Assembly: GCF_914271545.1 (NCBI RefSeq)
Contig: NZ_CAJZAH010000001.1
Span: forward strand, 1,240,001-1,304,000
Reading direction: 5' to 3'
DNA: 64,000 bases
Origin: Cupriavidus respiraculi
Lineage (GTDB): Bacteria > Pseudomonadota > Gammaproteobacteria > Burkholderiales > Burkholderiaceae
The translations under genes were made by a program, and so were the position numbers. The notes beneath the pieces are model-generated. The model searched no databases. It was given only the letters and a program-made list of their open reading frames with translations, and was not told the DNA's origin. This document shows, in pieces, positions 28,140 through 45,571 of this stretch (positions are counted from its first letter, which is position 1; the number at the start of each line of letters is the position of its first letter).

Positions 28140-28154
28140 AAATCCTGATGGAAA
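28021..28154 (-). ncRNA. Possible structured RNA ending in a terminator
   Basis: Read on the minus strand, three hairpins follow each other. They are TTTCCATC-N12-GATGGAAA (28154-28127), GAGCC-TTAC-GGCTC (28086-28073), and a GC-rich stem AAGCC.ACG/CGT.GGCTT (28058-28030) followed by eight T (28028-28021), a classic intrinsic terminator. No convincing minus-strand gene ends here. An 89-residue frame (28354-28085) has a plausible tail but an Arg-rich head. A small RNA or the 3' end of an untranslated transcript is the best reading. The 5' end and promoter are not defined. Confidence 0.4.
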
Positions 28155-28495
28155 ATCTCCGCGTTCCCGCTAATTGTTACGCTGTCGTCGCTTACTGAGG
28201 TGTCGGCACGTATCGCACACCGCGGGACGCCACGGCAGGCCCCTCGCCCAACCCGCCGCCCAGTCTGCTCGCGTCGTCGCGCCGAGCAGCAAACGACGGC
28301 GCGGCGCCGATCCACGGCCGGACGTGAAACGCTCCTCCGGACGCGGATGGTCATCCCCTCTTCGCTTTGACGGCAGCCGCCGACCGTCTCACGACCCCGC
28401 GGCCGTGCTCGCCGTGAGCCGTTCCACGCACCGCTTTCGGTTTTCTGAAGCCGACACCTATTTTTATTGCTTTATCCCGGCCAAAATCGGTCGAT

Positions 28496-35325: not shown

Positions 35326-35825
35326 GCGTCGATTTGACATCACGCGGCTTCGCCTAATCCTTTTCAGTCTGTGCGCCATCCGGGAAGCCGGTCTGCCGTT
35401 CCGCCCGCAGGCGGCTCACGACCCGGAATCCCTTGCCAGTGGCCGGTTTCCGGCCAATCCGCCGGTCCCGCTGGAAGGCGTGGACCGCTGTTGCAAGTAA
35501 TTTTTAAATCACGTTTAAAACCGCCGAAAGACCCGCCTAGACCCTGGCGACGTCATGGACTTTGACGATTTTTTGGCTCTGTTCCGCCTTTTGGCGGCCC
35601 CTCGCGGGGGCGCCGGGCGTCCATTCCGGACGTCAACGGGACCGGATGGTGCGACGTACACGCCATCGGACATTGCCAGGTGCCAGAGTACCCGCTGGCC
35701 GAGGATTCTTTAGAGGGATGTCAGGGGGAAAAGCGGCGCTTTTCGGGGTATTGGCGGAAGGGTGGTTGGCGCCGCTATATATATATAGGGGGCCGGCGGG
35801 GCATGGACGACGGTCGGGAGAAACG
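35326..35825. other. Non-coding stretch between fliC and glycosylation operon
   Basis: About 500 bp carries no convincing gene. It has AT-rich patches (TAATTTTTAAATCACGTTTA near 35499 and a TATATATATATA run near 35775), a small GGCGG/CCGCC hairpin near 35585, and no clear promoter for a plus-strand gene. Part of it could bind flagellar regulators. Confidence 0.4.
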
Positions 35826-35911: not shown

Positions 35912-36787
35912 TCAAAACCCCTTCCAGTAATCCACGAACCCCCGCTTGTAGATGAAATACCGGCACTGCAGCTCGGCATTGATCCGCTCGATCACACTCT
36001 CCAGCTCGCCCAGCTTTGGATTGTCCTGCTTGAACAGGAACCAGCTCTTGGCCTGCGGGGCGTAGACCGACGCGCCATAGCCCCACTGCGCCATCAGCAC
36101 CGCCATGCTGGCATTGGTGTGGAACGCCGTATGGACGACCGGGTCGAGGTAGAACCAGTTCGGGTCCGCCGGCACCCGTTCGCAGACGACCGAATGCATC
36201 ATCAGCACACCGTCGTCGGCCACCAGGGCGTCGACGTCGTCCAGGTCCTTGCGCTCCAGCACGTGCTCGAACATCGCGCTGTTGATCACGAGGCCGTACT
36301 TGCCCAGCGCGGTTTCCTCCACGTATTCGAGCGTGTCGTCGCCCCCGGTCACGTAGCGGTCGAAGATCCTGATCTTCGCGCCGAAATACTTGCGGGCAAA
36401 CTTGCTGAGCGTGCCGTAGCCGGCCGCATAGTCCAGCGCATCGTCCAGATCGAGCACGCCGTTCCGGGCAAGCATCAGCATCGCCAGCGCCTGGTCGGCG
36501 TAGGGGGGCTGGTTGATGCCTTCGTTGCCTGCCTCCACGCTGTGATGGAAGGCGGCGTTCAGTGCGACCCAGTGCTCGGGCGACAGTGCCTTGTGCGTGG
36601 TCGAGGCGACGAAGCCGCACTCGCTGCAACGCGCGTAGTCCACCTCCAGCGAGGGGAACGGCGCGCCCGGCGGCAACGTGGCGTAGCGCTTCGAGAAATA
36701 GGGCTGGCTTGCCGATCCGCAGATCATGCAGGCATGGTCGGCGGCCGGCGACACGGCAGGCGACGCGAACAGGGATTGCTGGCTCAT
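35912..36787 (-). CDS. Zinc-ribbon class I SAM methyltransferase
   Basis: The 291-residue protein starts with a zinc-binding pair CMICG and CSECG (Cys about 20/23 and 54/57), as in sugar C-methyltransferases. A Rossmann SAM domain follows, with motif I ALDYAAGYGTLSKFARKYFG and INSAMFEHVLER as a mid motif. It is the last gene of the minus-strand glycosylation operon, so methylation of an activated sugar or sugar substituent is likely. It starts 65 bp after the acyltransferase gene. Confidence 0.82.
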   Translation of the reverse strand: MSQQSLFASPAVSPAADHACMICGSASQPYFSKRYATLPPGAPFPSLEVDYARCSECGFVASTTHKALSPEHWVALNAAFHHSVEAGNEGINQPPYADQALAMLMLARNGVLDLDDALDYAAGYGTLSKFARKYFGAKIRIFDRYVTGGDDTLEYVEETALGKYGLVINSAMFEHVLERKDLDDVDALVADDGVLMMHSVVCERVPADPNWFYLDPVVHTAFHTNASMAVLMAQWGYGASVYAPQAKSWFLFKQDNPKLGELESVIERINAELQCRYFIYKRGFVDYWKGF

Positions 36788-36852
36788 GGAGAAATGGCGG
36801 GGGCGCTGGATGGGGCGTCGCCCCGTGACAAGGTTGACTGGCTCGACGCGGG

Positions 36853-37479
36853 CTACTTCTCGAACGCGCGCATCCGCCTGGCGGGGTTGCCCATGACGGT
36901 GGCGTCGTCAGGCACCTCGGAGAACACCACGGAGCCCGAGGCCACGGTGGCACGGGCGCCGACCTTCACGCCCTGCAGGATCGTGGAGCCGGATCCGATC
37001 AGCGTGCCCTCGCCGATCTCGCTGAAGCCGCCCAGCTGGGAGCCCGGATTGATCTGCACGCAGCGCCCGACCGTGGCGTCGTGCCCCACGCCGCAACAGA
37101 AGTTCAGGTAGCTGAGGGCGCCGAGCGTGACATTGGGCGACACCACGCACTGGGGAGACACGATGACCCCCTCCTCCAGCCGCGCCCGCTCCGACACCAC
37201 GCTGGACGCATGGACCAGCGACGGAAAGACGAAGCCCAACGGCTTGAGCCGGTGATGAATCGCGCGCCGCACCGCCGGATCGCCGATGGCGATCACCACG
37301 CTGGCGGTGCCGACGAGCCCGGGCGTGACCTCGCCCTTGAACAGCGTGCCGGGCAGGCCGAACTGGCCGTGCTCGTCATGATTGGTGCTGGCATAGCCCA
37401 CGATGCGCACCGCGTCCGCGAAGGCGGAGGTGAACTCGCGCGCCAGTCCGCCGGTGCCGATCACAAGGATGTCAATCAT
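36853..37479 (-). CDS. NeuD-like sugar O/N-acyltransferase
   Basis: The 208-residue protein has an N-terminal Rossmann-like head (IDILVIGTGGLAREF) and a left-handed beta-helix with hexapeptide repeats (VIVSPQCVVSPNVTLGA, then VQINPGSQLGGFSEIGEGTL). This is the NeuD/PglD/PerB architecture that acetylates UDP-4-amino sugars or sialic acids. The acceptor probably comes from the DegT aminotransferase of the same operon. The start at 37479, 1 bp after the ligase stop, was preferred over one ten residues upstream. Confidence 0.82.
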   Translation of the reverse strand: MIDILVIGTGGLAREFTSAFADAVRIVGYASTNHDEHGQFGLPGTLFKGEVTPGLVGTASVVIAIGDPAVRRAIHHRLKPLGFVFPSLVHASSVVSERARLEEGVIVSPQCVVSPNVTLGALSYLNFCCGVGHDATVGRCVQINPGSQLGGFSEIGEGTLIGSGSTILQGVKVGARATVASGSVVFSEVPDDATVMGNPARRMRAFEK

Positions 37480-37480
37480 C

Positions 37481-38773
37481 TCAAGCCCTCTTGAAACGGT
37501 GGCCGACACTGACGCTTTCCAGCCGGATGCGCTTGGGCACCATGTGCGCCTGCAGCTTGTCCTTGAGGAAGGCGGCCAGTGCGTCCTTCTCCAGCGCGCC
37601 GTCGGCCGGCTGCACCGTCAGTTCGACGTGCTGGCCGGTGATCGGGTTCTGCCGCGCGTACGCCTTGACCAGCGATACGCCGGGGTAGTCCAGCGCAACC
37701 CGCTCCACCTCGGAGGCCATGAACTTGAGCCCGCCGACGTTGATCACCTCGCTGGTGCGGCCCACCACCTTGTAGTAGCCGTCCTTGACCTCGACGATGT
37801 CCTTGGTGTCGTACCAGCCGTCCGCGTCGAACGGCGATGGCGCATTGAGGTAGCCGAGCATGCGCGAGCGCGAGCGGATCTGGAGCACGTCGTCGACCAC
37901 GCGGGTCTCGACGCCCTCGCCGCCCACCTTCATGAACAGGCTGTCCCGGGCTTCGGACTTGACGCGGACGATGCCGAGCTCGGACATGCCGAAGGTCTGG
38001 CGGAAATCGACCTGCGGCAGCAGCGCGCACAGCGCGTCCAGCGTCGGCTGGTCCATCCGTTCGGTGCCGTAGGTGATCAGCTTCAGGCAGGGCGGCACCA
38101 TGTCGGGCACCGCGCCGCTCATCAGCATCATGCGCAGGAACGTCGGCGTGGTCGGCAGCACCTCCACGTCGAAGGCGCGGCAGGTTTCCAGCACCGAATG
38201 CACGGTGCGGGCCTGCGGTGCCACCACCACGCCCTTGTTGAACAACGTGTGCAGCAGCGTGTTGATGCCGCCGATATGGTCGAACAGCAGGAAATTGATC
38301 GTGCGGCTGGTCGGGCGCGGTGTCTCGAAGCGCTTCAGGAACAGCGTGAGGTCATGCAGGATCGCCTTGGGCCGCCCCGTCGTGCCGGTCGAGAACAGGA
38401 TCAGGCCGGCATGCTGGTCGCGCCGCAGCGCGTCGATCAGCGCATGGCTGTCCTGGTGCGCGCGCCGGCGGACCGCGTCGCCGTCGATGATCACGTCGAC
38501 CTGCGCCTGCTCGAAGAAGTAGTCGTGCTGTTGCGCGGTTTCCACCGTCAGGGGCACCACGATAGCGCCAAGGTCGATCAGTCGCAGCAGCGTCAGGATC
38601 GACGACGGATTGAAGTCCCCGATGATGGCGACCACGTCGCCGGGCTTCACCTGCGACAGGTCCACCGGGTTTTCCGCGGCGATCTGGGAAAACTTCAGTT
38701 CATTGCCGTTGTGGATCAGGAAAGCGTAATCGACGTCCTTCCAGATCTCGCTCAGCTTCGCGATCAGCTTCAT
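37481..38773 (-). CDS. ANL-superfamily adenylating enzyme
   Basis: The 430-residue protein is an acyl/aryl-AMP ligase of short length. The ATP-binding P-loop LILFSTGTTGRPKAI, the A5-like YGTERM, and YDTKDIVEVKDGYYKVVGR (A7/A8 region) are present. The usual A10 catalytic Lys (GK) is replaced, since the C-terminus reads VSVGHRFKRA. With an ACP gene nearby it may load an acyl group onto the ACP for transfer to an amino sugar. It overlaps the SDR gene by one base and ends 1 bp before the acyltransferase. Confidence 0.82.
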   Translation of the reverse strand: MKLIAKLSEIWKDVDYAFLIHNGNELKFSQIAAENPVDLSQVKPGDVVAIIGDFNPSSILTLLRLIDLGAIVVPLTVETAQQHDYFFEQAQVDVIIDGDAVRRRAHQDSHALIDALRRDQHAGLILFSTGTTGRPKAILHDLTLFLKRFETPRPTSRTINFLLFDHIGGINTLLHTLFNKGVVVAPQARTVHSVLETCRAFDVEVLPTTPTFLRMMLMSGAVPDMVPPCLKLITYGTERMDQPTLDALCALLPQVDFRQTFGMSELGIVRVKSEARDSLFMKVGGEGVETRVVDDVLQIRSRSRMLGYLNAPSPFDADGWYDTKDIVEVKDGYYKVVGRTSEVINVGGLKFMASEVERVALDYPGVSLVKAYARQNPITGQHVELTVQPADGALEKDALAAFLKDKLQAHMVPKRIRLESVSVGHRFKRA

Positions 38774-39450
38774 CAGGCGCCACCCACATGGAAGACTTGC
38801 CCGGACAGCGAGCGGCTGCGCGCGTCGAGCAACAGCTCGACCAGGTCGCTGACCGCGTCCGGGGTGAATTGTTTGGGAATGATCTGCCGCGACACGATGC
38901 CCTCGATCTGCGCGGACGTGATGCCCTTGAGCAGCGCGGTGTCGATGGGGCCCGGCGCGATGCAGTTGACGTTCACGCCGAAGTCCGCCATCTCGCGGGC
39001 GAACGCCCGCGTAAAGCCCTCCACGCCCGCCTTCGACGCCGCGTAGATCGATTCGCCCTTCAGCCCCAGCGCCACCGCGATGGTCGAGAAGTTGATGATC
39101 GAACCGGCCCTGTTGCGCAGCATCAGCGGCGCGAACAACTGGCAGCAGTAGATGGTGCCCAGCAGATTGGTATGGACGATGTTGCGCGATACCTCGGGCG
39201 GCGTGGTGACCGCCAGGTTCATCGAGGCGATGCCGGCCGCGTTGACCAGGCCGGCCACCTTGGCCCCATCCGCCTTCAGCGTCTTGATCACCGCCTTGAC
39301 GTCGTCATACGACGACACGTCGCAGCGCATCGCCGGGAACGGCACGCCCTCGACATTGCGTGCCAGCCCGAGCACCGGCACGCCGGTGGCGATCAAGCGC
39401 TCGCAAATGGCGCGGCCCAGGCCCTTGCTGGCCCCGGTGACGACGATCAT
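38773..39450 (-). CDS. SDR reductase, ketoacyl-ACP reductase-like
   Basis: The 225-residue classical SDR has TGASKGLG at about 5-12, LVNAAGIASMN, and the full catalytic Ser/Tyr/Lys set (NFSTIAVAL, then IYAASKAG). It resembles FabG. With an ACP and an adenylating enzyme in one operon it probably reduces an acyl-ACP substituent or an NDP-sugar keto group. The start at 39450 overlaps the ACP stop (ATGA), and its stop overlaps the ligase start, so translation is coupled. Confidence 0.87.
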   Translation of the reverse strand: MIVVTGASKGLGRAICERLIATGVPVLGLARNVEGVPFPAMRCDVSSYDDVKAVIKTLKADGAKVAGLVNAAGIASMNLAVTTPPEVSRNIVHTNLLGTIYCCQLFAPLMLRNRAGSIINFSTIAVALGLKGESIYAASKAGVEGFTRAFAREMADFGVNVNCIAPGPIDTALLKGITSAQIEGIVSRQIIPKQFTPDAVSDLVELLLDARSRSLSGQVFHVGGA

Positions 39451-39734
39451 TGCTGCGCTTCCCGCTGGCGGGCGAACTCTTCCGCCAGCGTGCCGGCGGT
39501 GCGGAACATGCTGCGCGACTTCGACATGGCGGCGGCCGAGGTCCAGTCGAACTCGAAGCCGAGGTCCGCGGCCTTGTCTTCCAGCGCCAGGCACAGCTCG
39601 ACCAGCTTCATCGAGTCGAGCAGGCTGCCGTCGCCGATCAGCGGCGTACCGTCGGAGACCGCCAGGGTCTTGTCTTCGGCCAGCTCGCCGATCAGGGCGA
39701 AGATCTCTGGCTTGAGGGTGGCGACGTCGGACAT
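39447..39734 (-). CDS. Acyl carrier protein-like protein
   Basis: The 95-residue small acidic protein has the phosphopantetheine site at Ser41 in SLLDSMKLVELCLALED, the DSL/DSM motif of ACPs, with helix II character after it. It is longer than the 78-residue fatty acid AcpP and has a basic tail, typical of dedicated carrier proteins. It precedes the SDR and ligase and follows the aminotransferase by 66 bp, so it likely carries the acyl group of a modified amino sugar. Confidence 0.82.
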   Translation of the reverse strand: MSDVATLKPEIFALIGELAEDKTLAVSDGTPLIGDGSLLDSMKLVELCLALEDKAADLGFEFDWTSAAAMSKSRSMFRTAGTLAEEFARQREAQQ

Positions 39735-39800
39735 GGGTGTATCAGTGGTGAAGATAGTGAACTGGACAGCCCCGGCCCCGGGCGGGCGGGGGCCGATGCA

Positions 39801-40985
39801 TCAGGCCGCGACGCCGCTCATATAGGCGGGCGGCGCGTCCACGACCGGGGCGAACGGGAAGCCGGTGCGCGCCGGCATCGGATAGTCGGCGATCAGGTCC
39901 GCCACGCGCTCGACGTCGGCATCGGCCAGCGCCGGATAGATCGGCAGGCACAGCACGCGGTCGGCGGCATCGGCGGCCACCGGCAGGTTGCTGCGCGAGG
40001 CCGACGGCAGCCCGCGATAGACCGGGAAATCCGAGATCAGCGGATAGAAGTAGCGCCGCGCATAGATGTCGTGCTCGCGGAACTTCTGGTACAGCGCATC
40101 GCGGGTCAGCGGATAGGCGTCCGACACCAGGATGGGGAAGTACGAGTAGTTGGCGGTCGTGCCCGGCATCGGCGGCAGGCAGTGGATGCCCGGAATATCG
40201 CCCAGCAGCACCCGGTAGCGGGCGTCGATCTCCTTGCGGCGCGCCAGCGCCTGGTCGATATGCTGCAGCTGGAGCATCCCGAACGCCGCGTTGATCTCGC
40301 TCATCTTCCCGTTGATGCCGGGTGCGACCACGGTGACCTCGTCGACGAAGCCGAAGTTCTTCAGATGGTCGATGCGCTGCTTGGTCTTGGCATCCGGGCA
40401 GATGATCGCCCCACCCTCGAAGGTGTTGAACACCTTGGTCGCGTGAAAGCTGAGCACCGACAGGTCGCCATGGCGCAGGATGCTGCCGGCGGCCGTGTGC
40501 ACGCCAAAGGCATGCGCCGCGTCATAGATCACGCGCAGGTTGTAGTTGTCCGCGAGCTTCTGGATCGCATCCACGTCGCACGGGCGGCCATAGCAGTGCA
40601 CCGGCATGATGGCGGTGGTCTGCGGGGTGATGGCCGCCTCGATGCGGGCCGGGTCCAGGTTCAGCGTCTTCGGGCACACGTCGGCGAACACCGGCGTGAT
40701 GCCGTTCCAGTGCAGCGAGTGCGCGGTAGCGGCGAACGAGTACGGCGTCGTGATGACCTCGCCGGAGATGCGCAGCGCCTGCAGCGCCGTCACCAGCGCC
40801 AGCGTGCCGTTGGCGAACAGCGCGAGGTGCTCGACCCCGAGGTATTCGCACAGCGCCTTCTCCAGCTGCTGGTGGTAAGGGCCGCCATTGGTCAGGATCC
40901 GGTTCTCCCAGATCGACTCCAGGTAGGGAATGAATTCTTCCAGCGGCGGCAGGTAAGGCTGCGTGACGTAGACAGGATTTTTCAT
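39801..40985 (-). CDS. DegT/DnrJ/EryC1/StrS aminotransferase
   Basis: The 394-residue PLP-dependent sugar aminotransferase has the catalytic Lys in LSFHATKVFNTFEGGAI. VEHLALFANGTLALVTALQA is the family's early motif, and YSYFPILVSDAYPLTRD lies in the C-terminal half. It converts a keto sugar to an amino sugar, as VioA does for dTDP-4-amino-4,6-dideoxyglucose. The start at 40985 overlaps the stop of the giant transferase (ATGA). No keto sugar-forming dehydratase is in the operon, so dTDP-4-keto-6-deoxyglucose from the rhamnose pathway is a plausible source. Confidence 0.88.
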   Translation of the reverse strand: MKNPVYVTQPYLPPLEEFIPYLESIWENRILTNGGPYHQQLEKALCEYLGVEHLALFANGTLALVTALQALRISGEVITTPYSFAATAHSLHWNGITPVFADVCPKTLNLDPARIEAAITPQTTAIMPVHCYGRPCDVDAIQKLADNYNLRVIYDAAHAFGVHTAAGSILRHGDLSVLSFHATKVFNTFEGGAIICPDAKTKQRIDHLKNFGFVDEVTVVAPGINGKMSEINAAFGMLQLQHIDQALARRKEIDARYRVLLGDIPGIHCLPPMPGTTANYSYFPILVSDAYPLTRDALYQKFREHDIYARRYFYPLISDFPVYRGLPSASRSNLPVAADAADRVLCLPIYPALADADVERVADLIADYPMPARTGFPFAPVVDAPPAYMSGVAA

Positions 40986-43900
40986 GGCTCGATCGTGAAG
41001 CTGGTTGCCGGCTCGCTGGCGCACCAGGAGGCCCACATCTTGCGCATGGCCTTCTCGAGGCCGCGCGCCACAAAGTCGGGACGAAGCAGGGACGACGTTT
41101 CGATGCGCTGGCGCATGCCGGCGCGATGGGCGGCCAGTCCCGGGATATCGTTGGCCCAGCGCACGGCCTTTTCGACCAGTTCGTCGGCCGATTCGGAGAC
41201 CCAGTCGCTCAGGCCCACCTGGTGCAGCACGCCGGAGGTCTGGCGCGACACGCGCGTCTCGCCGCTCAGCGCGAGGATCGGCACGCCCATCCACAGCGAG
41301 TGGCACGTGGTGGTGCCGCCCGTGTAGGGGAAGGTATCGAGCGCGATGTCCACCTCGTTATGCATCGCGAGGTAGGTCTTCATCGCGACGTTCGGCCGCG
41401 TGCGGATACGGTCTGCGGAGACGCCGAACCTGGCGAAGCGCTCCTTGATGCGGACGGACAGGTCCGCATCCATATTGCCCATGAAGATCCTCGAGTCCGG
41501 CACGCTGGTGAGCACACGCCCCCACAGCGCGAGCACGTCGTCGCTGATCTTGGTGTAGCGATTGAAGCTGCCAAACGTGACATAGCCATTCTTCATCGCC
41601 GGCGATGGGCCGACCGGCGCGCTGTCGGGCGACGGACGGAACGTGAATGCGGCGGGCAGGTACACGAGCTTTTCGGTGAACTGCGCGTCCAGCACGCCCG
41701 GTGCCGCGGCATGGCTGTCGGTGATGAAGTAATCCATCTCCGCCAGGCCGGTGGTTCCCGGATAGCCGATCCAGCTCACCTGCACGGGCGCGGGGCGCAT
41801 GGCGAACGCGGTCAGTCGATTGCCGTCGGTATGGCCGGACAGATCGAACAGGATGTCGATGCGATCCTGGACGATCAGGTCGCGCAGCTGCGCCTCCGTC
41901 ATCGAGCGCACGCGCCGCCACGATTTCGTCAACGGCTTGACGCGCTCCGACGTCCTGTCGTCCTGATCGCCGGTGTGATAGGCATAGATCTGGTATTGCT
42001 CGCGGTCGAGCTCCTCCCAGATCGGCTCCAGGAAGTTCATCACGGCGTGCTGGCGCAGGTCGCCCGAAACAAAGCCCACACGCAACGGGCGCGCCGGATC
42101 GCGGTCGTTGGCATGGCGCTTCTGCACCTGCCCACGCGCACGTTTCGCCGCCATCTCGCCGAAACTGCGGTGCTCGCGGAACAGGTCCTTCGCGCTGTAG
42201 CACGACCGGTGCGACATCAGGAACAGCATATTGCTCTGCACCGCGTGCAGCTGCGGATTCAGTTCGAGCGCGCGGCGATAGCTGGCCTCGGCCATATTCA
42301 AGTCGCCGCTCTCGCTGTACACGATGCCCAGCATGTTGTGGGTGCGATCGAACCTAGGATCCAACTTCAGCGACGCCTGCAGGCATCCCAGCGCCGCGTC
42401 GAATTTGCGCGCCCAGCGCAGGGCCAGCGCCAGCCGGTTGTACTTGACGGGATCGGTCGGCTTGAGCAGGACCGCCCGGTTGGCGATCTGTTCGGCAGAC
42501 ACGTACCGACGGTGTTCGACCAGCATGTCGCTGAACTCGGTCTGTGCGTCCGGATCCAGCGCCTTGAGCGATATGGCGCGCCCCATGGCGACCAATGCGT
42601 CGTCGGCACGGCCCTGCTGCTTGAGCAGCCGGGCCAGGCTATGCCAGCCGTCGGCGGACGCCGGATGGTTCTGCAACAGCGCGCGCAGCTCGGTCTCCGC
42701 CTCCGGCAGTTTGGCGGCATCCCACAGGGTCTGGATGCGCACGAAATCGTTGCGCAGCGCGCGCGACAGCGCCTTTGCCTGCGCGGTCTGTTGCACCCCG
42801 GCGGTGGCGGCATCGCGCAGCACGTGGGTGAAGTGGGCTTCCATCCGGTGCCACCAGACGACATCGCGCCAGTCGTTTCGCGTGCTCAGCGCCTGGTAGT
42901 GGTCGGCCCACGCCTGAGCGGAACCGGTCAGCAGGCCCTGGTCGCGCAGGCGCTCCATCAGGCCCGGAATGTCGAGCGGGTTCTCCCGTTCCGGCTCCTC
43001 GGCAGCGGCCGCGCTCTCGCGGCACAGATGGGCTGGCGCCGCGGCGTCATCGCCGCGCAGGAATTGCGCTTCGTCGGCGCTCAGCGCGAGCTGGACGGGC
43101 GCGTGCCACAGCGACCACGTGCCTAGTTGTCCGCCGTCCGGCTGCGCGTCCAGCGCGGCGCGCAGATGCGGCAGCAGACGCAGCGAGGCGGCCGTGTCAA
43201 CATCGTAGGGCGTGGCCTCGGCGGCCATGCGCAGAATGCCGGCGCGCAGCATGGTCTCCAGGGCCTTGCGCACCGACTGGCGCAATACATCCTTGTCTTC
43301 CCATGCCTGGTCGGGCATCGCCGCTGCCAGGTCGGCGACGCTGCAGCTCGCAGGCCACGACGCGGTCAGCGCGGCCATGACGGCGGCCACGCGGGTATCG
43401 CCGGTCACGATGCTGCGTCCAGCCTGGTTGCTGTACCGGCGGCGATCGATGGGCACGCCCGGCTCGGCGCGGTGCATGCGGAACACCCCGGCGAAGCGCA
43501 GAGCGTCCAGGCGGCTCAGGTCGGGGGCCGACAGGCACTGGCCCGCGCGTTCCTGATGCACCAGCATGCTCTGACGGAACTGGCGGCCCACCGCGAAATC
43601 GAGGAATTGCTGGCGCACCGCCGCGGTCTGGCCCAGTCCCTTCAGGCTGCTGAACAGCGCCACCTTGGCGCCGAAGGTCTGGGGAATTTCCTGCTCGGGC
43701 TCCGCGTCGCCGATATGCACCAGCCCATGCTGGACTACCGTATTGGCAAACTCGATGAAGTAGCCCGCGGAAGGCGCGCCGTCCTGCAGGAACTCCGTCG
43801 CGAGCTCGTCGTCGGACAGGCCCTTGGCGTAGTCGAGCATCGGCGCCAGCGGCGAGGCGAGGCGCGGGTTGTCGGCCAGGCATTCGCTGAACATGGTCAG

Positions 43901-44473
43901 CATGGTGCGCGCCTCGGCAATGCTCTCGGCGATGCCGGACGCGGCATGGCCGGCGAACTGCATGGCATCGCGCAGTACGTCCTTGCCCTTCCATCCGGGC
44001 AGCGTGTGATAGCTGACGAATGCCACGCCCAGCGGCGACAGCAGCTGCTTGCACAGCGCCAGCAGCGCGTGGCCCAGCTCGTCCGGTACCGTGCCGTAGG
44101 TCTGGTGCAGCACGATGTAGTCGAACTGCCCCAGGTCCGCGACGAGATCGACCTCGCCCATGACATGGAAGCGCACGTTTGCCGCACCGAGCCGGGCCGC
44201 GTTTGCCCGGGCCGTTTCCACATCGTCGGGGTTGGCGTCCACGCCGACCACGTGCGCGCCGGGATAGCCCAGCGCGAACGGGAACAGGTTATCGCCGACA
44301 CCGCATCCCAGCTCCAGCACCCGCGCCTGCGCCAGCGGCACGGTCTCGATGCCGTAGAGATGGGCCGCCGCCCGCAACTGGATGGGGGAGCTGGCAAAGA
44401 CGGTGCGAGGCGCGGCTTGCGCCTGCTCTTGCGGCGCCGCTTTTTCGCCGATGACGGTGTCGGATAGGTTCAC
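40982..44473 (-). CDS. Methyltransferase-TPR-OGT fusion (GT41 glycosyltransferase)
   Basis: The 1163-residue cytoplasmic protein has three parts. Residues about 35-300 are a SAM methyltransferase (motif I ELGCGVG at 54-60) with the PKMT-type regulatory region (FFLQDGAPSAGYFIEFAN-like at about 235), continuing to about 480. Residues 590-770 are TPR repeats. Residues 800-1150 are an O-GlcNAc transferase domain of the SPINDLY/GT41 type: PLRVGFVSGDLRQHAVMNFL, FGSFNRYTKISDDVL, and TFPYTGGTTTCHSLWMGVPI. Such enzymes glycosylate Ser/Thr of proteins in the cytoplasm. The GTG at 44473 is the best start, but upstream ATG codons are open. First gene of the operon. Confidence 0.85.
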   Translation of the reverse strand: MNLSDTVIGEKAAPQEQAQAAPRTVFASSPIQLRAAAHLYGIETVPLAQARVLELGCGVGDNLFPFALGYPGAHVVGVDANPDDVETARANAARLGAANVRFHVMGEVDLVADLGQFDYIVLHQTYGTVPDELGHALLALCKQLLSPLGVAFVSYHTLPGWKGKDVLRDAMQFAGHAASGIAESIAEARTMLTMFSECLADNPRLASPLAPMLDYAKGLSDDELATEFLQDGAPSAGYFIEFANTVVQHGLVHIGDAEPEQEIPQTFGAKVALFSSLKGLGQTAAVRQQFLDFAVGRQFRQSMLVHQERAGQCLSAPDLSRLDALRFAGVFRMHRAEPGVPIDRRRYSNQAGRSIVTGDTRVAAVMAALTASWPASCSVADLAAAMPDQAWEDKDVLRQSVRKALETMLRAGILRMAAEATPYDVDTAASLRLLPHLRAALDAQPDGGQLGTWSLWHAPVQLALSADEAQFLRGDDAAAPAHLCRESAAAAEEPERENPLDIPGLMERLRDQGLLTGSAQAWADHYQALSTRNDWRDVVWWHRMEAHFTHVLRDAATAGVQQTAQAKALSRALRNDFVRIQTLWDAAKLPEAETELRALLQNHPASADGWHSLARLLKQQGRADDALVAMGRAISLKALDPDAQTEFSDMLVEHRRYVSAEQIANRAVLLKPTDPVKYNRLALALRWARKFDAALGCLQASLKLDPRFDRTHNMLGIVYSESGDLNMAEASYRRALELNPQLHAVQSNMLFLMSHRSCYSAKDLFREHRSFGEMAAKRARGQVQKRHANDRDPARPLRVGFVSGDLRQHAVMNFLEPIWEELDREQYQIYAYHTGDQDDRTSERVKPLTKSWRRVRSMTEAQLRDLIVQDRIDILFDLSGHTDGNRLTAFAMRPAPVQVSWIGYPGTTGLAEMDYFITDSHAAAPGVLDAQFTEKLVYLPAAFTFRPSPDSAPVGPSPAMKNGYVTFGSFNRYTKISDDVLALWGRVLTSVPDSRIFMGNMDADLSVRIKERFARFGVSADRIRTRPNVAMKTYLAMHNEVDIALDTFPYTGGTTTCHSLWMGVPILALSGETRVSRQTSGVLHQVGLSDWVSESADELVEKAVRWANDIPGLAAHRAGMRQRIETSSLLRPDFVARGLEKAMRKMWASWCASEPATSFTIEP

Positions 44474-44815
44474 AGAGGGATTTCCCGGCGTGCGTACGGA
44501 TGAATCGGAAGATGGCGCTGAGCGTATCAAGCCACCCTCCCGGCCAATCCCAAGAACAGAACCGGAATGAGCGGGCATTTCGCGCCCTGCCGCGAGCCGC
44601 CGCCCCTGCGCGTGCGCGAGCGGCGTGCCGCAATCGGCGGAAATAGCCGGTTTTTCGTCGGGAGTTCCCCTGATCGTCCGCAGCCCGAGCCGATATGCTT
44701 CGTCGGGCCGAATCGGGAAGGGGCAAGGTGTGCCGCCGCCGCGCATGCCGACCCGCCGATCGCAGACCGACCAACCTTGACCGGCCAGGCAACGCCGGCC
44801 GCAAGCTACCGAACC
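44474..44815. promoter_or_regulatory. Divergent flagellar control region
   Basis: This 342 bp gap separates the glycosyltransferase operon from fliE. It contains AATCGGCGGAAATAGCC at 44632-44648, which looks like a FlhDC half-box. Read the other way, a GAAA-N14-GCCGATTG element (44656-44631) resembles a sigma-28 promoter pointing at the transferase gene. Either reading gives flagellar control of the region. No other clear element was found. Confidence 0.35.
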
Positions 44816-45136
44816 ATGAGCACAATCGCACCCATCGAAGGCATGATCCAGCAGCTGCGCGGCATCGCGCAGGGCGCCACCGGCGCACCGGCCGGCGCCG
44901 CCGAGGCATCCTCCGGCGGCTTCGCCGGCGAACTGCAGCGCACGATGCAACGCATCAACGCCAACCAGGAAAAGGCCAACGGTTTGGCCGAGGCGTTCGA
45001 ACTGGGCAAGCCCGGCGTGGCGCTGAACGACGTGATGATCGAGCTGCAAAAGGCCGGCATCTCGTTCCAGACCGGCGTGCAGGTCCGCAACCGCCTGGTC
45101 CAGGCCTACCAGGAAGTGATGAGCATGGCGGTGTAA
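44816..45136 (+). CDS. fliE: Flagellar hook-basal body protein FliE
   Basis: The 106-residue protein links the MS ring to the rod. The conserved C-terminal half (MQRINANQEKANGLAEAFEL, then VALNDVMIELQKAGISFQTG and VRNRLVQAYQEVMSM) identifies it, and the N-terminal half is Ala/Gly-rich. The ATG at 44816 (MSTIAPIEGM) is the family start. It is the first gene of fliEFGHIJK and is separated from fliF by 435 bp that holds a separate promoter. Confidence 0.95.
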   Translation: MSTIAPIEGMIQQLRGIAQGATGAPAGAAEASSGGFAGELQRTMQRINANQEKANGLAEAFELGKPGVALNDVMIELQKAGISFQTGVQVRNRLVQAYQEVMSMAV

Positions 45137-45571
45137 GGGTCGGGCAAGGACTCTCCCCGCACTTGCGCATCGCCGACGACGGCCCTCCGCTCGCACCGAG
45201 CCGGGGGCCGTTTTCACGCCCGCAGAGAGAGGCGAATCCCGGCCACCCGCGAGGCCGGCAGCCGCCGCCACGGAAATTTCGCCCCATCCGGGGAACTCCC
45301 CCTAAAAACTCGCCCTATTCGGCCGATTGTCGCGGGCGCGACTGCACGATCATCTCTACCGTGCCGGACTTGGCCGACGAGCGCCCGCTTTTCGCGGTGC
45401 GGCTACGGCGGTCCAGCCCCCCACTCGATCAACTTTCGCAGGAGTACGCGTGTCTTGTCTGCAGCGTAACGTGAGCCATGCCGGCATCGGCGGGAGCGCC
45501 CCGGGCGCGTCTTGCGGCCCGATGGCCCGGACGGCCCGGACGGCCTCGGCGTCCAACCAGGAGTCGCGTCG
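45137..45571. other. Intergenic region between fliE and fliF
   Basis: About 435 bp carries a likely sigma-28 promoter (45303-45329) and an AGGAG site before fliF. Frames across it look like chance. The gap is unusually long for this gene order. Confidence 0.6.
45303..45329 (+). promoter_or_regulatory. Sigma-28 (FliA) promoter before fliF
   Basis: TAAA-N15-GCCGATTG closely matches the FliA consensus TAAA-N15-GCCGATAA. It is 243 bp upstream of the fliF ATG. Placing basal-body genes under FliA would be unusual, so it could boost a late level of fliF. Confidence 0.55.

Follow-up and report, generated by a model that had tools for sequence, protein, structure and literature searches.

We examined a 64,000-nucleotide stretch of the Cupriavidus respiraculi genome (contig NZ_CAJZAH010000001.1, positions 1,240,001 to 1,304,000; hereafter the window, whose host genome comprises 5.59 Mb in 18 contigs) and propose that seven open reading frames (ORFs), all encoded on the minus strand at 44473-35912 between the flagellar genes fliC and fliE, probably form an island that glycosylates flagellin with a sugar bearing a hydroxyacyl amide, whichever hydroxyacyl that may be. 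The best explanation for the origin of the operon is a mosaic composed of a core, represented by a GT41 glycosyltransferase fusion and a DegT-family aminotransferase, and an acyl cassette. Judged by homology, the acyl carrier protein (ACP), the short-chain dehydrogenase/reductase (SDR) and the ANL adenylating enzyme of the island appear to be one module homologous to the hydroxyacyl starter cassette of thiomarinol and, by the literature, of mupirocin. An earlier reading of the letters and ORFs only (the sequence-only reading) had missed this relationship, and had likewise missed that the model of the last methyltransferase resembles sugar C-methyltransferases.

The window ANL, 18 relatives and the ANL of pTML1, from a thiomarinol producer (locus L044), form one group against 15 ordinary ANLs with a support of 100/100 (unrooted tree, 20 family rows of 92, 15 usable background rows from 18 loci tried; the tool gave a long-branch warning at that branch). 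An identity as an ordinary fatty-acid coenzyme A (CoA) ligase was ruled out, the enzyme being set apart from the 15 background ANLs with full support. The C-terminal Arg-Phe-Lys and several core-motif residues are invariant in 13 of 13 rows. On pTML1 the gene order is ileS-ANL-SDR-ACP followed by a polyketide synthase of 750 amino acids (aa), and we take these ANL, SDR and ACP to be TmlQ, TmlS and TacpD because the order matches that of the published mupQ/mupS/macpD cassette with MmpF. According to the literature, mupQ, mupS and macpD adjoin the 745-aa MmpF and make a 3-hydroxypropionate starter from malonyl-CoA (PMC10098928), and the thiomarinol starter is 4-hydroxybutyrate (PMC10098928; PMC4685789). 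As in these starter cassettes, SDR and ACP are adjacent to the ANL in the window, with the order reversed (ACP-SDR-ANL, versus ANL-SDR-ACP on pTML1). The window SDR is 29% identical to the pTML1 SDR, and FabG-type models score best for it.

The Pfam scan of the window ACP alone gave no match at default thresholds, and PHROGs returned nothing for it or for the last methyltransferase. Ser41 is invariant in 48 of 48 rows (the window ACP and 47 extracted sequences), and a profile of the 45 ACP rows in the same position matched carrier proteins in PDB, with 33 sequences at an E-value of 0.1 or below, led by the unnamed entry 2lki (0.00018) and by 9ls6, an acyl carrier protein (0.00041). Seven of the 45 family members, the window ACP not among them, reached Pfam PP-binding at E up to 0.1. 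The structural model (mean pLDDT 80.9) places Ser41 at the start of helix II and, when searched with Foldseek, gave best rows that were mostly carrier proteins, none under E 0.001, the lowest value being 0.027; the mupirocin carrier protein MacpD (6tg5) ranked 18th with an E-value of 0.17.

The coordinates of the island and of its flanks are listed in Table 1. ORF coordinates and the flanking fliC and fliE genes confirmed the seven one-strand genes of the sequence-only reading, and five of its seven gene labels were recovered directly by family scans, including Glyco_transf_41, TPR, Methyltransf_31/25 and MethyTransf_Reg in the fusion, DegT_DnrJ_EryC1 (1.8e-100), adh_short in the SDR (3.4e-43) and AMP-binding in the ANL (1.7e-19). 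The other two labels, ACP and last methyltransferase, lack a family match at default thresholds and were borne out separately, the ACP by its invariant Ser41, a carrier-protein profile and a model, the methyltransferase by its fold. In gene order, the joints are a 4-bp overlap, 66 bp, a 4-bp overlap, a 1-bp overlap, 1 bp and 65 bp (four of the six overlap or lie 1 bp apart, the remaining two being 65 and 66 bp). As in flagellin glycosylation islands, glycan genes are found inside a flagellar locus, between fliC and fliE, and a protein glycosyltransferase (GT41) is encoded with sugar-biosynthesis genes (DegT and NeuD). The centre of the flagellin, which had been described as rich in Ser and Thr, is so in absolute terms but is not distinctive (25% Ser+Thr versus 21% at both ends; 24% and 28% in the centres of two relatives).

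Table 1. Positions in the window of the seven island genes, the flanking flagellar genes and the promoter-box copies around fliE
Feature	Position	Strand	Details
GT41 fusion	44473-40982	-	1163 aa, GTG start; Methyltransferase + MethyTransf_Reg + TPR + GT41 (SPINDLY/OGT-type)
DegT-family aminotransferase	40985-39801	-	394 aa; family scan
Acyl carrier protein (ACP-like)	39734-39447	-	95 aa; putative phosphopantetheine Ser41
SDR reductase, FabG/TmlS-like	39450-38773	-	225 aa; family scan
Short ANL enzyme	38773-37481	-	430 aa; predicted acyl-ACP ligase
NeuD/PglD/VioB-type left-handed beta-helix N-acyltransferase	37479-36853	-	208 aa
Methyltransferase with N-terminal Cys4 site	36787-35912	-	291 aa
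fliC, flagellin, presumed acceptor	35200-33686	-	504 aa
fliE	start 44816	+	
fliF	start 45572	+	
Box copy between GT41 fusion and fliE	44628..44662	+	rank 4 in the window without gaps (9.4 bits); rank 2 if one base is skipped (17.9 bits)
Box copy upstream of fliF	45298..45332	-	29.9 bits, best in window

The GT41 fusion is the only gene in the whole genome with a match to PF13844. We found matches to it in 33 of 60 genomes of the genus at 1e-20, with full length only in the window genome and G042 (59% identity); at 1e-120, 12 of 349 genomes sampled across the order have a match, approximately full length in three (its own, G550 with 47% and G589 with 35% identity). Of ten genus stretches chosen for their GT41 matches, eight have a GT41 gene together with both fliC and fliE, which gives the fliC-fliE region the look of a site where glycosylation genes vary within the genus. 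Seven Burkholderiales stretches, a subset of the 11 other genomes with a GT41 match, contain flagellar genes in five cases (fliC in L179, L180, L181 and L184; fliE/fliF in L182) and, also in five, a DegT of 67-77% identity adjoining the GT41 gene. Compared with eight relatives the window DegT is 67-84% identical, and seven of these adjoin a GT41 gene. In G042 the neighbours of fliE are the GT41 fusion and a DegT (85%); after DegT come an FlhB-like ORF (by eye), FliK, an FliT-like ORF (by eye), FliS, FliD and FliC, and the stretch has no acyl genes. Because of the neighbourhoods and lengths of the GT41 relatives across the genus and order, GT41 and DegT appear to be the older flagellin core in Burkholderiales, of which the methyltransferase half of the fusion would be an optional part. 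These pairs beside fliC or fliE, together with rmlBDAC in the genome, support flagellin glycosylation as the function proposed in the sequence-only reading. In C. metallidurans (G030, L079 7692-17282) a GT41-DegT pair (DegT 77%) stands at the head of a different glycan-type cluster with several methyltransferase, PhyH-like and ATP-grasp-like ORFs (by eye); the 20-kb stretch has no fliC, fliE or fliF match.

For the DegT protein, the best NCBIfam model was DesI (TIGR04427, 305 bits, under its cut-off of 650) and the best PDB match 2po3 (243 bits, the next at 163), which is listed as a '4-dehydrase' and which we take to be DesI. Because these were the nearest models in both databases, C4 amination of deoxythymidine diphosphate (dTDP)-4-keto-6-deoxyglucose is the likely step of this DesI/VioA-like enzyme, and the 4-amino-4,6-dideoxy sugar route of the sequence-only reading would agree with this closest model, a C4 aminotransferase matched below its cut-off. 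Elsewhere in the genome RmlB scores 510 bits against a cut-off of 365, followed by rmlD, rmlA and rmlC by ORF reading. The NeuD-like protein scores 162.7 bits with TIGR03570, above the curated cut-off of 160.8, and its PDB matches are a pilin glycosylation protein (acetyltransferase), a perosamine N-acetyltransferase (PerB-type) and VioB. As it is the only candidate acceptor enzyme for a hydroxyacyl-ACP in the island, it would N-acylate the 4-amino sugar with the hydroxyacyl group.

The last methyltransferase gave no family match at default thresholds, but it has the N-terminal Cys4 site (C20, C23, C54 and C57, invariant in 4 of 4 rows) and the methyltransferase core fold of KijD1 and TcaB9. 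The C-terminal third domain of these enzymes is missing: the protein ends where TcaB9 residue ~281 aligns, and matches stop near 281-285 of ~405. Identity to KijD1 and TcaB9 is 11-15%, with Foldseek TM-scores of only about 0.46-0.55 by query length, and MtmC is another sugar C-methyltransferase of this kind. A sequence profile searched against PDB (E up to 10) recovered no sugar C-methyltransferase, so the suggested link is one of fold. Since the model of the last gene's product is that of a sugar C-methyltransferase minus the C-terminal domain, the sugar may have a C-methyl branch.

The ACP-SDR-ANL trio is a transferable module that, in the loci seen, mostly lies away from flagellar genes. 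The ANL as a conserved trait of the genus was ruled out, there being no orthologue in the 59 other genus genomes (the best other matches cover part of the protein at about 27-32% identity). At 1e-30 it is present in 8 of 369 genomes of a class-wide draw, its own included, and on plasmids we found 17 records at E up to 1e-20. A scan of named genomes yielded 79 ANL loci, from the best 80 of 561 confirmed matches, with flanks of at most 10 kb that are frequently shortened by contig ends. An SDR is directly upstream in 69 of these, elsewhere within 5 kb in nine and absent in one; an ACP match lies upstream in 59, the 20 without one including four with a contig end less than 1 kb from the ANL. Neither SDR nor ACP was found in 29 control ANL loci, whose flanks reach only 1.5 kb from the match. 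A NeuD homologue is directly downstream of the ANL in seven of the 79, and at 1e-5 we detected KAS III in 13, DegT in 25 and a ketosynthase (KS) in two, but the GT41 fusion and the last methyltransferase in none (L153 has a TPR-only match to the fusion, 5e-5). Record titles place the trio in Pseudomonadota, Verrucomicrobia, Prochlorococcus and others. Prochlorococcus is not known to have flagella. The sequence-only reading had held that finding the operon in genomes lacking flagella would count against it; the operon as such was seen nowhere else, and only the trio occurs in non-flagellated genomes.

In six metagenome-assembled genomes (MAGs) labelled Acidobacteria, Gemmatimonadetes, Gemmatimonadota and Gammaproteobacteria (L149, L150, L151, L154, L156 and L157), the SDR match begins about 3.3-3.4 kb past the ANL start and not directly upstream, a second module arrangement. 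In Yersinia rohdei (L142, 10001-11292) the trio ANL follows a large polyketide synthase and, being divided between two reading frames, looks broken in the assembly. On a plasmid of Rhizobium sp. T1470 (L043, 9294-13690), an SDR-ANL pair of the family has as neighbours a weak NeuD match and a gene annotated as a CmlS-type FADH2 halogenase, which suggests a small, uncharacterised halogenated-acyl pathway.

From the gene content, homologies, order and modularity of the island and from rmlBDAC, we infer the catalytic steps, the acyl group and the acceptor as follows. (i) RmlA and RmlB, encoded elsewhere in the genome, would give dTDP-4-keto-6-deoxyglucose, (ii) which DegT would aminate at C4 to a dTDP-4-amino-4,6-dideoxyhexose, probably of gluco configuration (viosamine). 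(iii) The ANL would load a carboxylic acid or acyl-CoA carboxylate onto Ser41 of the ACP, and the SDR would reduce the loaded acyl to a hydroxyacyl-ACP, most likely in the way that 3-hydroxypropionyl- and 4-hydroxybutyryl-ACP arise from the cassettes of mupirocin and thiomarinol. (iv) The hydroxyacyl would be moved to the 4-amino group of the sugar by the NeuD-like enzyme, (v) the sugar would be methylated by the last methyltransferase, by the methyltransferase half of the fusion or by both, and (vi) the GT41 half would attach it to Ser/Thr of FliC. On pTML1 a ketosynthase takes the hydroxyacyl-ACP, whereas the predicted acceptor in the window is a sugar amine. The hydroxyacyl amide on the dTDP-derived sugar is predicted because the ANL groups with that of the thiomarinol plasmid, whose pathway starts from a hydroxyacyl-ACP. 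It would be made without the ketosynthase VioS of Pseudomonas. The supply of the acyl group by ANL and ACP, as the sequence-only reading had it, is plausible, and the two would stand in for VioS, the ketosynthase that the P. syringae island uses (PMC3927599). The predicted monosaccharide increments are 217.095 Da (3-hydroxypropionyl) or 231.111 Da (hydroxybutyryl), with 14.016 Da more per methyl; values of 217.095, 231.111 or 245.126 Da would be expected at each site, a singly methylated 3-hydroxypropionyl sugar having the same mass as an unmethylated hydroxybutyryl one.

Given flagellin glycosylation, an ordinary origin of the acyl group has not quite an even chance, a probability that falls within that of flagellin glycosylation and does not add to it. 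The same island would keep steps i, ii and iv-vi, the ANL would load acetoacetate or 3-hydroxybutyrate, the SDR would be a plain FabG, and the product would be the modified viosamine of P. syringae with its 3-hydroxybutyryl. The FabG-type models of the SDR agree with this, as do the KAS III genes that join the trio in some loci and the N-(3-hydroxybutyryl)viosamine borne by P. syringae glycans (PMC3927599, PMC3958885), but the seven genes include no KAS III (VioS), and the ANL groups with the thiomarinol-plasmid enzyme. The most specific form of the starter-cassette reading is that FliC would carry a C-methyl-branched 4-amino-4,6-dideoxyhexose with an N-omega-hydroxyacyl group (3-hydroxypropionyl or 4-hydroxybutyryl) derived from malonyl- or succinyl-CoA by a ketosynthase-free route; this form, of which the move of a polyketide-type hydroxyacyl starter cassette into protein glycosylation is a part, is speculative and on present evidence unlikely.

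It is less probable still that the flagellin sugar needs no more than the GT41 fusion and DegT, with ACP, SDR, ANL, NeuD and the methyltransferase as hitch-hikers that are silent or modify something else. The pair in G042 at fliE and the restriction of the ANL to one of 60 genus genomes (that of the window) would fit such a view, but the genes on one strand overlap by 1-4 bp or stand 1-66 bp apart, and a free 4-amino group leads one to expect a NeuD enzyme. Least probable is decoration of a surface polysaccharide (lipopolysaccharide or capsule) with fliC as an accidental neighbour, as a 67% ANL relative within a polysaccharide cluster (G322, L045) and two homologues of the last methyltransferase among polysaccharide-type genes (L191 and L192, by eye) might suggest. 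Against it, none of the seven genes resembles a flippase, a polymerase or a lipid-linked initial transferase, and the glycosyltransferase is a GT41, a cytosolic protein-modifying family, with relatives at fliC or fliE.

Several observations weigh against flagellin glycosylation with a sugar acylated by the starter-type module. Flagellar genes are near the trio in two of the 79 loci (L118, a Methylomonas-labelled MAG, and L144, a Massilia with flhB), and among 11 earlier loci (seven class genomes and four plasmids) fliC is near it in one, as a fragment at a contig end (L051). With so few flagellar neighbours, the trio taken on its own is no pointer to flagellin. Comparing gene order across relatives, as the sequence-only reading had proposed, returned GT41-DegT at flagellar loci and the full seven-gene set in none of the other loci examined. 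The KAS III genes may indicate ordinary ketoacyl chemistry in some pathways that use the trio. The affinity to the MupQ/TmlQ clade comes through the pTML1 ANL, which branches deep and has ~33% identity to the window ANL. The type of module is thus well supported, but its substrate is not transferable by homology. MmpF/TmpF (ketosynthase-acyltransferase-like) lies downstream in mupirocin and thiomarinol and has no counterpart in the island; because it is not among the seven genes, the island trio is cassette-like and not a member of the mupirocin/thiomarinol pathway.

The flagellin reading itself has one comparable case and perhaps another. In the Methylomonas-labelled MAG, fliC shares one contig with the trio, a DegT (27%) and a GT41 gene (30%), and for this reason we read it as a putative second flagellin use of the trio. 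In L051 (G379), the fliC N-terminus at the contig end is ~3.3 kb from the ANL, perhaps a third flagellin recruitment of the module. This contig (2-5767) is of low GC and encodes, within 6 kb, the fliC N-terminus, then ANL, SDR and an ACP-like ORF.

On the fliE side of the island, fliE and fliF have the same direction in the window; in the other stretches where both genes could be located, six from the genus and L182, they diverge. On its two sides fliE has the arms of an inverted repeat of 44 nt, with 73% of positions matching, which overlaps the genus fliE-fliF promoter box. For this box we built a matrix from six genus copies, and we take its consensus to be FlhDC-box-like. At 44631-45332, fliE is flanked by inverted box copies, as if flipped by recombination between them. 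The second-best ungapped match in the window (17.5 bits) is at 28145-28179 (-); the third (10.3 bits), at 35722-35756 (-), lies ~520 bp upstream of fliC. With up to two mismatches allowed, the box pattern occurred in the fliF-side copy and nowhere else, a single match that 24 of 100 shuffles reached as well; no sigma-70 promoters were found in the island (shuffles mean 1.3). Because the GT41-side copy is only fourth ungapped and shuffles also match the pattern, the case for a promoter there is weak, and so is that for placing the island under a flagellar class-II control region, which would follow if the box is read correctly.

Islands of this kind are known. The enterobacterial flagellin islands of De Maayer & Cowan 2016 (PMC4875605) are described as containing, in various mixes, GT41 with methyltransferase domains, DegT, NeuD, Acp, a CoA ligase (CaiC) and FabG, plus S-adenosylmethionine-dependent methyltransferases. 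By description, the site in a flagellar locus and the kinds of genes are the same as in the window, which differs in its genus, Cupriavidus, and in its site, fliC-fliE. Their CaiC may be another ANL because, in a draw of 295 genomes from the order that includes Yersinia and Aeromonas, the window ANL family (E up to 1e-25) was detected in only four, of which two had also come up in the other scans. The P. syringae viosamine and P. aeruginosa PAK islands (PMC3927599) share with the window ACP, reductase, VioB-type acyltransferase and methyltransferase; the window DegT may be a counterpart of their VioA-type aminotransferase, and a large transferase occurs on both sides (VioT, 1,173 aa, versus the 1163-aa GT41 fusion). 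The P. syringae island is described as reaching 3-hydroxybutyryl with KAS III (VioS), reductase and ACP (PMC3927599), whereas the window island has the ANL in place of KAS III, which is absent from its seven genes. The different make-up noted in the sequence-only reading therefore holds against the Pseudomonas islands, but not as a kind, since the enterobacterial islands are similar (PMC4875605).

In titles and abstracts, with subscription journals mostly outside coverage, we found no MupQ/TmlQ-type cassette linked to flagellin or O-antigen sugars, and no report of a flagellin sugar with a ketosynthase-free omega-hydroxyacyl amide on a C-methyl-branched 4-amino-4,6-dideoxyhexose. The starter module of mupirocin and thiomarinol appears, from the 79 loci, to be a widespread mobile acyl-supply unit, which links two fields, and would have been recruited into flagellin islands at least twice (in the window and in the Methylomonas-labelled MAG), perhaps a third time (G379). 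If this is true, one three-gene signature would allow N-acyl groups to be predicted for many O-antigens and flagellins that are still uncharacterised. While the kind of island is known, its make-up and ancestry are new, namely the proposed identity of the acyl module, the life of this module outside flagella, the core-plus-cassette history in one genus and the C-methyltransferase-like last gene.

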